Positions 2,915 to 43,044 of a DNA stretch of 64,000 bases are shown in pieces. The stretch covers positions 372,001-436,000 of the forward strand of contig WASS01000020.1 of the NCBI GenBank assembly GCA_009712635.1, read 5' to 3'. A model generated the notes under the pieces. That model worked only from the letters and a program-made list of their open reading frames with translations, had not been told where the DNA came from and did not search any database. Position 1 is the stretch's first letter. Every line of letters begins with the position of its first letter. The translations under genes were made by a program, and so were the position numbers. This DNA is from Hungatella sp. (GTDB taxonomy: Bacteria; Bacillota; Clostridia; Lachnospirales; Lachnospiraceae).

Positions 2915-2957
2915 AAACTAAATTTATGAAGGAGGCATAAATACAAATAGCAAAGCT

Positions 2958-3160
2958 AAGCGCCATGCACCTGAGGATACGATCGTGAACGTTTTCGCAT
3001 GAAAACGGTATCCAGGGTTAACGAGGTGAAGGGTTATCGAATATTCGGCGGATGCCCTTCCATGCCAGCCGGGCGTGTATCCATTGTGAAATATGCAGGT
3101 AACTGCAAAACAACCACTCTGGAACCGGTATATGCAGGAGAAAACCTGGTAGACAAATTG
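2958..3160 (+). ncRNA. glmS self-cleaving ribozyme-riboswitch (3' boundary approximate)
   Basis: Catalytic RNA in the glmS leader that, in characterised members, cleaves itself when bound to glucosamine-6-phosphate and so lowers glmS mRNA. The hallmark A|GCGCC is at 2959-2964, placing cleavage between 2959 and 2960. A stem follows (GGATAC/GTATCC around an inner CGTTTT/AAAACG hairpin), then the conserved core GTTAACGAGG at about 3014-3025, then TTATCGAATATTCGGCGGAT and the arms GAAGGG/CCCTTC. A GCAG-GTAA-CTGC tetraloop hairpin marks the 3' domain. Position directly upstream of glmS fits. The 3' end is not defined by eye. Confidence 0.9.
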
Positions 3161-41226: not shown

Positions 41227-42738
41227 TTAGTAAGACGACCGAACCGTAACAGGCTCTGCTCCCACATTCTGGGTAAAGAACTCATCATGTTCTACTAACA
41301 ACATGGCCGGCTGAAATTTCAGTATCAGGTTTTCAATCTGGATTCTGGAGTATACATCGATAAAGTTTAATGGTTCATCCCATATATAAAGGTGAGCCTG
41401 CTCACATAAACTGCGAGCAATTAAAACTTTTTTCTTTTGTCCCTCACTAAATGTTTCCATGGGCTTTTGAAATTGTTCCCTTGAAAAATCCAGTTTCCTT
41501 AACAGTGCTTTAAACAGGGAATCCTCTACACCGCACTGTATTCCGTATTCTGTCAGACTTCCCTTTAAAAAGGAGGTGTCCTGGGAAACGTAGGAGATCT
41601 TCATTCCGCTTGCAGTTTCAATGGTCCCCTGGTAATCAATGGGATCACCCGCTGCTTTATTACCCAAAATCAATTTCAGAATGGTTGTTTTTCCGCTGCC
41701 ATTCTTTCCCTGAAGGGATATTCTCTGTCCCTGTTCAAGGCTTAGGCTGACCGGATCGCACACTGGTCCCTGGTAAAACGGGATAACATCTTTTAATACA
41801 AGAAGTATGCCGGAATGATGCTTTAATGGATACAGCTTTAAATCTTCTGCTTCCTCAATATTTTTTAACAGATCCTTTTTATCATCAATTGCCTGGTTCT
41901 GCCTGCGCTCCAGACTTTTTCTGCGCATCTGCATGCGCCTTGACTTTTCACCCACATAGGCTCTTGTATCAATGGACTTTTCGTGAATCATCGATTTTTT
42001 TCCTATTTTTGTGGATTCGACTTTATCCGCCCATTCTCCTGATTGTCTGGCTGCTGCTTCCAGATGTCGGATATCCTTCTTTAAACGTTCATTTTCCGAC
42101 TGTTCATATTGATCTTTTCTCTGGCGGTTTTCGTACCACATGGAGAAATTGCCTTTTTGAACCTCAATATCAGCGCGGTTAATGGATAAAATATGGTCGA
42201 CCGAATCATCTAAAAACTTACGGTCATGGGATACGAGAATAAATCCTTTTTTGCCGTTTAAATACTGACTGACCAATTCTCTTCCTTCCCTGTCCAAATG
42301 ATTGGTGGGTTCATCAATAAGCAGAAAATTGCCCTCCCGTAAAAACAACGCAGCCAGTAAAACCTTGGTTCGTTCTCCATTTGACAGAGTATTGTAGGGC
42401 CGATAAAGCACATCTTCTGAAACCTTAAGCTTTGTCAGCTCTCTTTTTATTTCCCAGTATGGGCAGTCGCCCAGAATGGAATTGATTATATCAAGGGTCT
42501 GTGCTTCCTTGTCCTCCACTTCATAGGGAAAGTAATCAAATGTAACGCTTGATACAATACTTCCTGTATATTCCATCCGGTTCATAAGAAGATTTAAAAA
42601 TGTAGTCTTCCCCCGCCCGTTTCTTCCTGTAAAACCAAGCTTCCAGTCTGTATCCAGCTGAAACGTAGCGTGTTCAAATACCGGATCGCTGCTTCCTTCG
42701 TAAGTAAATGAAAGATCTGTAACCTGAATCAATGACAT
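41227..42738 (-). CDS. Lsa-type ABC-F ribosome-protection ATPase
   Basis: 503 aa from ATG 42738, with GGAGGG six bases upstream; an ATG two codons earlier touches that site. Two ABC domains without membrane segments: Walker A TGRNGRGKTT, signature LSNGERTK and LIDEPTNHLD in the first; GKNGSGKTT, FSEGQKKK and IWDEPLNFIDV in the second. The long charged linker (about 190-310) is the ribosome-probing arm. The second signature and the EPLNFIDV box resemble Lsa and related ABC-F proteins that displace pleuromutilins, lincosamides and streptogramin A from the ribosome. Drug range cannot be read from sequence. Confidence 0.87.
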   Translation of the reverse strand: MSLIQVTDLSFTYEGSSDPVFEHATFQLDTDWKLGFTGRNGRGKTTFLNLLMNRMEYTGSIVSSVTFDYFPYEVEDKEAQTLDIINSILGDCPYWEIKRELTKLKVSEDVLYRPYNTLSNGERTKVLLAALFLREGNFLLIDEPTNHLDREGRELVSQYLNGKKGFILVSHDRKFLDDSVDHILSINRADIEVQKGNFSMWYENRQRKDQYEQSENERLKKDIRHLEAAARQSGEWADKVESTKIGKKSMIHEKSIDTRAYVGEKSRRMQMRRKSLERRQNQAIDDKKDLLKNIEEAEDLKLYPLKHHSGILLVLKDVIPFYQGPVCDPVSLSLEQGQRISLQGKNGSGKTTILKLILGNKAAGDPIDYQGTIETASGMKISYVSQDTSFLKGSLTEYGIQCGVEDSLFKALLRKLDFSREQFQKPMETFSEGQKKKVLIARSLCEQAHLYIWDEPLNFIDVYSRIQIENLILKFQPAMLLVEHDEFFTQNVGAEPVTVRSSY

Positions 42739-42744
42739 AGACAT

Positions 42745-42777
42745 CCCTCCAAATATTGCAGAAAATAAATTTCTGCA
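42745..42777 (-). promoter_or_regulatory. hairpin next to the ABC-F ribosome binding site
   Basis: TGCAGAAA / TTTCTGCA stem (42757-42764 with 42770-42777) with a 5-base loop, six bases upstream of the GGAGGG at 42745-42750. It may restrict or space translation initiation. Confidence 0.45.
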
Positions 42778-42778
42778 T

Positions 42779-42812
42779 AAAAAACAGCTGCAAGAATCAT
42801 ATTTCTCACAGC
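42779..42812 (-). terminator. leader terminator T2 of the ABC-F gene
   Basis: GCTGTGAGAA (42803-42812) pairs with TTCTTGCAGC (42787-42796), ten pairs including two G-U, loop of six, then TGTTTTTT on the minus strand. It precedes the ABC-F start by about 40 bases, so it would stop transcription before the gene. Its 3' arm can instead pair with a leader segment at 42901-42909. Confidence 0.7.
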
Positions 42813-42822
42813 CGAATCGGTC

Positions 42823-42846
42823 AAAAAGAACAGGCACGGCCGTTCT
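42823..42846 (-). terminator. leader terminator T1 of the ABC-F gene
   Basis: AGAACGGC / GCC-T-GTTCT stem with one bulged T and a CGT loop, followed by TTTT. An upstream direct repeat of its 3' arm (minus-strand GTGCCTGTT at 42912-42920 and again at 42829-42837) could pair with the 5' arm and prevent it. Confidence 0.6.
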
Positions 42847-42900
42847 CCTTGCAGATAGTGTCTATTTGGGGACACAAAAAGGGCTAGAGAATGAAGTAAT

Positions 42901-42920
42901 ATTCTTGCAAAAACAGGCAC
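42901..42920 (-). promoter_or_regulatory. candidate antiterminator segment in the ABC-F leader
   Basis: Minus-strand GTGCCTGTTTT followed by TTGCAAGAAT. The first part can pair with the 5' arm of T1. TGCAAGAAT pairs perfectly over nine bases with the 3' arm of T2 (42789-42797) or, over 11-12 bases, with the segment that starts at the leader stop codon (42963-42974). The three-way choice is the core of the proposed switch. Confidence 0.55.
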
Positions 42921-42973
42921 AATAAAAAAAGATATAAAAATATCCTAATCATCATGCAGTTACTTTACAAGAA

Positions 42974-42985
42974 TTATTTCTTCAT
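42974..42985 (-). CDS. three-codon leader ORF (Met-Lys-Lys-stop) before the ABC-F gene
   Basis: ATG AAG AAA TAA with an unusually good ribosome binding site, AAGGGGTG at 42991-42998, five bases upstream. About 24 bases separate it from the expected transcription start. Its stop codon's last base begins the segment that can pair with 42901-42912, so a ribosome held at the stop codon would free that segment. Very short leader ORFs are known before other Gram-positive ABC-F genes; this one is my assignment from spacing and context. Confidence 0.6.
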   Translation of the reverse strand: MKK

Positions 42986-43015
42986 CCTTTCACCCCTTCC
43001 ATTTCTTATGACGGT

Positions 43016-43044
43016 AGTTTATCATACAATAATTAAATTGTCAA
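43016..43044 (-). promoter_or_regulatory. promoter of the ABC-F leader
   Basis: Perfect TTGACA (43039-43044), 17-base spacer, TAAACT (43016-43021) with a TG extension (TGATAAACT), minus strand. It lies between motB and the leader ORF, giving an untranslated leader of about 270 nt. Confidence 0.75.

Follow-up and report, generated by a model that had tools for sequence, protein, structure and literature searches.

A predicted ribosome-mediated attenuator with a very short uORF in the leader of an Lsa-like ABC-F gene

In a 64,000-nt window of a Hungatella sp. contig (WASS01000020.1, positions 372,001 to 436,000), a leader of about 270 nt (about 43009-42739, minus strand) lies directly 5' of a 503-codon ABC-F gene (41227-42738, minus strand), the position occupied by ARE-ABCF attenuators, with a MotB-like gene on its other side. 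The locus raises the question of what this leader would sense and how the signal would reach the gene. A first-pass annotation had proposed that a ribosome stalled at the stop codon of a Met-Lys-Lys ORF releases a middle segment, which breaks two tandem terminators and lets the ABC-F gene be read. Folding, covariation, conservation and the joint occurrence of element and gene all support the device class, whereas a stall at the stop codon looks less likely and the first terminator is probably not regulated. In all likelihood, then, this leader controls an Lsa-like ABC-F gene by transcription attenuation that is mediated by ribosomes, as in VmlR and CplR.

The Lsa-like gene and its leader

The closest solved structure to the ABC-F protein is Lsa(A) (E 1e-116). 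The protein passes the general NCBIfam model for ribosomal-protection ABC-F proteins (NF000355; 443.1 against a cut-off of 380) but, at 678.8 bits over residues 1-495, stays under the curated cut-off of 750 of the Lsa family model (NF000167); for this reason the gene is called Lsa-like, and its drug spectrum is treated as presumptive. It probably protects ribosomes from antibiotics, with a presumed role in resistance. Most of its nearest protein relatives (90-97% identity) bear the name Lacrimispora. The Lacrimispora gene and leader also occur, at 96-98% protein identity, in L010 and L051, two MAGs whose titles ('Paenibacillaceae bacterium', SIG288 and SIG286) are probably wrong. An in-frame GTG at 42837 with AGGAG upstream would give the ABC-F protein 33 extra residues (window 42739-42837); this longer N-terminus was ruled out, as the codon is not conserved, being GCG in L095 and lying in a stretch that is absent in L096 and L097. 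A glmS ribozyme is present elsewhere in the window (2948-3133, plus strand, 49.3 bits).

The features of the locus, in the direction of transcription, are as follows:

43016-43044, minus strand: promoter of sigma-A type, TTGACA-17-TAAACT, with TG before the second hexamer
42991-42998, minus strand: uORF ribosome-binding site AAGGGGTG, mostly sequestered in the anti-antiterminator stem
42974-42985, minus strand: uORF Met-Lys-Lys-stop, ATGAAGAAATAA, seen in the sequence, its frame conserved in the genus
42949-42996, minus strand: segment 1, the 5' arm of the anti-antiterminator, holding the uORF and most of its SD
42880-42925, minus strand: segment 2, the 3' arm of the anti-antiterminator and the predicted antiterminator arm once freed
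42858-42875, minus strand: small GTGTC/GACAC hairpin between segment 2 and T2
42823-42846, minus strand: T1, a bulged hairpin plus U5, lineage-specific, folding in both states
42779-42814, minus strand: T2, an intrinsic terminator with its stem at 42814-42785 and its U tract at 42784-42779, both arms predicted targets of segment 2
42757-42777, minus strand: 8-bp hairpin TGCAGAAA/TTTCTGCA between T2 and the ribosome-binding site of the gene
41227-42738, minus strand: Lsa-like ABC-F gene, 503 aa, ATG start, GGAGGG 5' of the start

The promoter that had been annotated is confirmed, with 10 of 12 hexamer positions matching, and it is retained in close relatives although the sequence upstream of it differs; the transcript presumably starts near 43009. 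The Met-Lys-Lys ORF (42985-42974) holds as well, with a ribosome-binding site that ends 5 nt ahead of it and of which the free fold pairs 42996 to 42992. From 43009 to the end of T2, the leader folds at -85.3 kcal/mol (z -8.5), and 0 of 200 shuffles were as stable, so the annotated structure stands up against chance. In the core fold, segments 1 and 2 form a stem of 40 pairs (42996-42949 with 42925-42880; the 1:2 stem), or 47 pairs including the apical hairpin, and T2 forms separately from it. The pairing of 42963-42974 with 42901-42912 that was noticed earlier is real but amounts to the centre of this longer stem. Near the apex of the stem, a T-rich stretch (42926-42935) is largely retained in the genus alignment; RNA polymerase might pause there and so be brought into step with the ribosome on the uORF. 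A further in-frame ORF downstream of the uORF, spotted by eye in the window sequence, was rejected, having ATA for a start codon in L093 and a changed length in L096.

In the proposed mechanism, ribosomes would start and finish the three-codon ORF fast when no drug is present, segment 1 would re-pair with segment 2, T2 would fold and transcription would stop before the gene. A blocker of the peptidyl transferase centre, which the cases of Lsa(A), VmlR and CplR suggest would be a pleuromutilin, a lincosamide or streptogramin A, would freeze the ribosome on the AUG, where it would cover segment 1 and so free segment 2. Segment 2 would then seize the emerging 5' arm of T2 and after it the 3' arm, T2 would not form and the gene would be transcribed. 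We infer the stall, the drugs that cause it, and termination and readthrough in the cell.

Conservation in the genus and the position of the start codon

DNA comparison finds the leader in 22 of the 25 genus genomes, and protein comparison finds the gene in 23; for G012, the additional genome, the leader was taken from L132. A covariance model of the 1:2 stem, R1, finds one place per genome in the same 23 genomes as the gene, on the coding strand and, more weakly, on the opposite strand of the same hairpin; R1 was built from these leaders, so that its matching them is by construction, while the single place per genome is not. The other two genomes, G010 (67% complete) and G015, have neither an R1 match nor the gene. 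The upstream context varies: the window has the MotB-like gene, and several relatives have a sequence there that matches the final codons of proA from the window.

Over 22 distinct leaders, 96.2% of the cells of the 40-pair stem are paired, as against 46.0-55.8% when slid, and 6 of its pairs (21 cells) are changed on both sides, as against 2.5 (5.7) in shuffles. With the apical hairpin included there are 13 two-sided pairs (6.0 in shuffles), 7 of which lie in that hairpin. The antiterminator is paired in 89.0% of cells in the genus leaders and shows little covariation; its GCAAGAA core, paired in both states, is nearly invariant, as is expected of an arm that both states share. All covariation counts, for the 1:2 stem, T2 and the antiterminator, were made on 23 rows, 22 of them distinct.

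Conservation of the MKK ORF was borne out for the ORF but not for its peptide. All 23 genus leaders have a tiny uORF of 2-3 codons in this position, and it reads MKK (10), MK (5), MKL (4), MN (2), MI (1) or MEL (1). Across the 169 leaders scanned, genus included, 72 have a strict three-element core, defined as a word near the uORF, its exact complement and a like word further down. An earlier scan of 100 leaders had found the longest repeated word before the T-rich tail to be at least 7 nt in 57, as against 10 of 300 shuffles, a few of those 57 words being T-rich words other than the core. In 64 of 71 strict-core leaders (the 72 with copy L051 dropped) an AUG precedes the core by 8-13 nt, and a GTG stands at that spacing in 4 of the remaining 7. 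The shortest frame from that ATG has at most 7 codons in 64 of 64 leaders, which is true of 32% of the 553 other ATGs that these leaders contain, and the ATG is directly followed by a stop codon (AUG-stop) in 15 of the 64, as against 1.4% of the other ATGs. Three near-strict rows bring the AUG-stop leaders to 18, all in one Paenibacillaceae clade of 23; they use TAA, TAG and TGA, and a Paenibacillus urinalis plasmid copy is likewise AUG-TGA. Other strict-core leaders have uORFs of 5-7 codons, and the 97 leaders without the strict core include some with imperfect-core short uORFs or other short uORFs (MRK, MRI) and some of another leader type. On a tree of 84 proteins, which drops L051, L063, L085, L042 and the truncated L015 (135 aa) and includes 19 listed leaders, most of them near-strict, whose uORF length was set by hand, the length class of the uORF requires 14 changes.

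The uORF peptide therefore looks free and the position of the AUG fixed, a pattern to be read with caution, as the stop bases also pair in the stem, the rows are related and the near-strict rows were hand-chosen. Taken one by one, the bases of the stop codon are paired in 18, 17 and 17 of the 18 AUG-stop leaders; within the AUG, the A has no partner in 11 of them and the U in 6, yet both are invariant. Since pairing constrains the stop bases too, that the immediate stop is itself selected is held with moderate confidence.

The peptide and the position of the stop vary, whereas the distance from AUG to core is nearly constant, so that a decisive stall at the start codon is more likely than one at the stop of MKK, which the first-pass annotation had proposed. 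For Lsa-like ABC-F leaders in general, the balance tilts slightly towards the initiating ribosome as the sensor, with the 8-13 nt spacing from AUG to switch under selection and the stop and peptide left to drift. On an AUG-stop frame, no peptide bond would ever be made, and the drug would be sensed as a block of the first reaction, which would be fMet release in AUG-stop leaders and the first peptide bond in the others; the spacing would match the edge of the initiation footprint.

In the same leader, the stall might instead be set by the MKK peptide or its stop codon, through nascent-peptide or codon-specific arrest or through lysine starvation at the Lys codons, and MKK is indeed invariant in the window's own clade (9 of the 23 genus leaders, plus L108). 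The available part of the vmlR study also reports weaker induction for the VmlR variant MRK than for MIN (PMC9226507). However, the MKK nucleotides pair in the stem as well, which helps explain their local conservation, their place is taken by MK, MI, MN, MKL or MEL in the genus, by AUG-stop in Paenibacillaceae and by 5-7 codons elsewhere, and the repeated changes of length class on the tree count against a stall of this kind, making it distinctly unlikely. Instead of the conserved peptide of a nascent-peptide arrest, frames of 1, 2, 3 or 5-7 codons with differing residues are found, and lysine-starvation sensing by the KK codons was rejected in view of MI, MN, MKL and AUG-stop at the same place.

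Outside the genus, R1 was run over 73 sources (72 loci and the window). At E <= 0.01, coding-strand matches to the leader itself came from 10 of the 72 loci, with the best match in L016 (1.1e-13), followed by L041, L043 and L021; 7 of the 10 are AUG-stop leaders, and a match away from the leader was seen in one source only (L067). Among 200 family genomes, R1 matches the own genome and 4 others, in each of the 4 before an ABC-F gene; three of these places are just upstream of Lsa-like genes and the fourth is before a 45%-identical ABC-F. A relative of the gene at E <= 1e-150 is present in 69 of the 200, own genome included, and R1 matches 3 of the 68 others, plus one genome with a more distant relative. 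R1 is thus narrow, the general core is wider than R1, and many relatives have other leaders.

Several further leaders were observed before Lsa-type genes. The plasmid lsa(E) of Enterococcus faecalis (L212) and three Lachnospiraceae genomes (L168-L170) share the same MYNFSC uORF and the same spacings, an identity that suggests recent transfer; the presence of the same core before plasmid-borne lsa(E) bears on plasmid-borne inducible resistance. Five Lacrimispora genomes (G005, G006, G009, G019 and G020) have a paralogue, another Lsa-type gene (L135-L139) at 56-57% identity, headed by a MINFSC-type leader of its own. Some Lsa-type genes (L061, L067, L073, L211 and L213) are preceded by a different kind of leader ORF, of which MSNLDTIVTHVILCISR in L213 is an example; in most cases an inverted repeat of CTCCGTA/TACGGAG type comes after it. 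A related ORF, read by eye, follows the first MINFSC attenuator in L135-L139, which are possibly tandem attenuators.

Terminators and the predicted switch

T2 comprises 12 pairs plus U6, was picked up by the terminator scan and has 95.8% of its cells paired over 22 distinct genus leaders, almost without covariation. T1 is not among the 4 sites of that scan and folds in every state examined, whether or not a ribosome footprint is masked. Of the two terminators annotated in tandem, T2 is therefore real, whereas T1 is not conserved and folds in both states; T1 is probably not controlled by the switch, and T2 alone looks like the regulated terminator. Regulation of T1 and T2 together, in tandem, would be in keeping with the T1 hairpin and U5 found in 7 of 23 genus leaders, window included, but T1 is missing in three others (L096, L097 and L132) and replaced by unrelated sequence in 13. 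With T1 folding free and masked alike, joint regulation is quite improbable, and T1 was rejected as a second regulated terminator for this folding and for its lineage specificity. The annotated repeat of the T1 arm, GTGCCTGTT, is present in the window from 42920 and 42837 but is not conserved, L095 differing at both places. In L132 (G012), the uORF (MEL) and the 1:2 stem are retained and T2 looks degraded; this leader is possibly constitutive or translationally regulated.

When a ribosome footprint over the uORF was masked in the folding, segment 2 was freed and paired with both arms of T2, as 42910-42897 with the 3' side (42788-42801) and as 42891-42882 with the 5' side (42803-42813). The pairing that the first-pass annotation had proposed between the middle segment and the T2 3' arm is confirmed (42910-42901 with 42788-42797); the one with the 5' arm goes beyond that annotation. 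At equilibrium, the antiterminator outweighs the terminator in 0 of 71 unmasked leaders, in 34 of 71 with a 31-nt mask on the AUG (6 of 20 genus, 16 of 18 AUG-stop, 9 of 28 long and 3 of 5 other leaders) and in 0 of 71 with a mask of the same size in the apical region, the loss of the 1:2 core under the AUG mask being partly by construction, as this mask covers much of the core. The set of 71 is without L045, L051, L063 and L085 but includes three near-strict leaders, L019, L025 and L033, and its 20 genus leaders are those other than L131 and L132, which have no strict core.

The window leader itself reaches a mean antiterminator probability of 0.10 at equilibrium under the AUG mask. Its minimum-energy folds to 42779 switch with masks on codon 2 or 3; with the AUG mask, transcripts to 42788 and 42785 switch and the transcript to 42779 does not, and with a slightly different AUG mask the switch occurs at 42779 too. 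Extended by 79 bases, to 42700, all three masked minimum-energy folds re-form T2. Equilibrium folding was therefore set aside as proof of the switch, being weak on both counts (34 of 71 leaders, and T2 re-formed in the window to 42700). In transcripts that end before the T2 3' arm, segment 2 captures the T2 5' arm under the AUG mask, by a mean over 0.5, in 20 of 20 genus leaders (mean 0.84 masked versus 0.21 free), in 14 of 18 AUG-stop leaders, in 19 of 28 long ones and in 3 of 5 others; capture without a mask is seen in 1 genus, 2 AUG-stop, 9 long and 1 other leader. A kinetic switch during transcription is plausible on these models. Since the antiterminator uses both T2 arms, the conflict between alternative pairings that had been pointed out earlier can resolve during transcription, although equilibrium folds by themselves do not decide the point.

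The switch could also act mainly on translation, by hiding or exposing the gene's own ribosome-binding site, as contributes in cplR, where according to the accessible part of the source the SD sits in the terminator stem (PMC10201436). A start-proximal helix does touch the site in folds to 42700, but the GGAGGG (42750-42745) lies outside both T2 and the antiterminator, and the helix over part of it is predicted alike in the free and the three masked folds, which leaves translational attenuation very improbable. A structured leader of ~270 nt, taken alone, would fit a riboswitch for a metabolite, a gene for a trans-acting sRNA or a pair of terminators without regulation, and Rfam ncr1575 (RF02452) aligns end to end, but at 22.1 bits (E 0.5) it is far under the gathering score of 60, no Rfam family matches the leader at its gathering score and the uORF at fixed spacing would be left unexplained, so that this group of readings is extremely improbable.

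Comparison with known attenuators

Read as a ribosome-mediated transcription attenuator, the window leader is, on its sequence, a well-supported candidate for a new member of the ARE-ABCF attenuators in Lacrimispora. The same attenuation logic has been demonstrated by experiment for the vmlR and cplR leaders in the portions of the two studies available (PMC9226507; PMC10201436). Like the present leader, the Bacillus subtilis vmlR leader (uORF MIN) has a tiny uORF in an anti-antiterminator stem, an antiterminator, an intrinsic terminator and an ABC-F target, while its ABC-F subfamily and its uORF are different ones. As far as the available text of that study describes it, the SD of the vmlR uORF is unpaired and precedes the stem, with the uORF itself in a bulge, whereas here the uORF and most of its SD are inside the 40-pair stem; vmlR also has a separate hairpin over the SD of the gene (PMC9226507). 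The Clostridioides difficile cplR leader (uORF MR[I/M]), shown to be drug-inducible, resembles the window leader in a 5' hairpin that sequesters the uORF and a terminator before the ABC-F gene. In the portion of that source at hand, the cplR terminator stem also holds the gene's SD, whereas T2 ends ~40 nt before the gene (PMC10201436).

For the Streptomyces ARE5 genes tiaA and are5sc, toeprints in the accessible text place the stall caused by lincosamides, streptogramin A and a pleuromutilin at the uORF start codon; these systems differ in belonging to another phylum and in having a nine-codon uORF (tiaA) or a TTG-started one (are5sc) (PMC12421871). Lsa(A), the closest protein subfamily, is known here by its uORF consensus, the four codons MAGN obtained with uORF4u in the part of the source available (PMC10201436), whereas the strict-core uORFs have 1, 2, 3 or 5-7 codons. 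Among the matches listed from the open-access literature, no mention of Lacrimispora with an ABC-F uORF was found, and the titles and abstract openings listed yielded no bacterial AUG-stop or one-codon drug-sensing uORF, the start-stop sites of PMC9841429 being of another kind as far as its available text goes.

Published ABC-F uORFs are described by peptide consensus, and several were found with uORF4u, whose default minimum is given in the accessible documentation as nine nucleotides, or three codons (PMC10219788); one- and two-codon frames can thus be missed. Set beside these systems, the present leaders would represent a variant of the family in which two codons, or just a start and a stop, can make up the sensor frame, and the spacing from AUG to switch is what is conserved. 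A one-codon sensor would separate start-codon stalling from nascent-peptide effects, and would make what the ribosome senses on ABC-F leaders directly testable.
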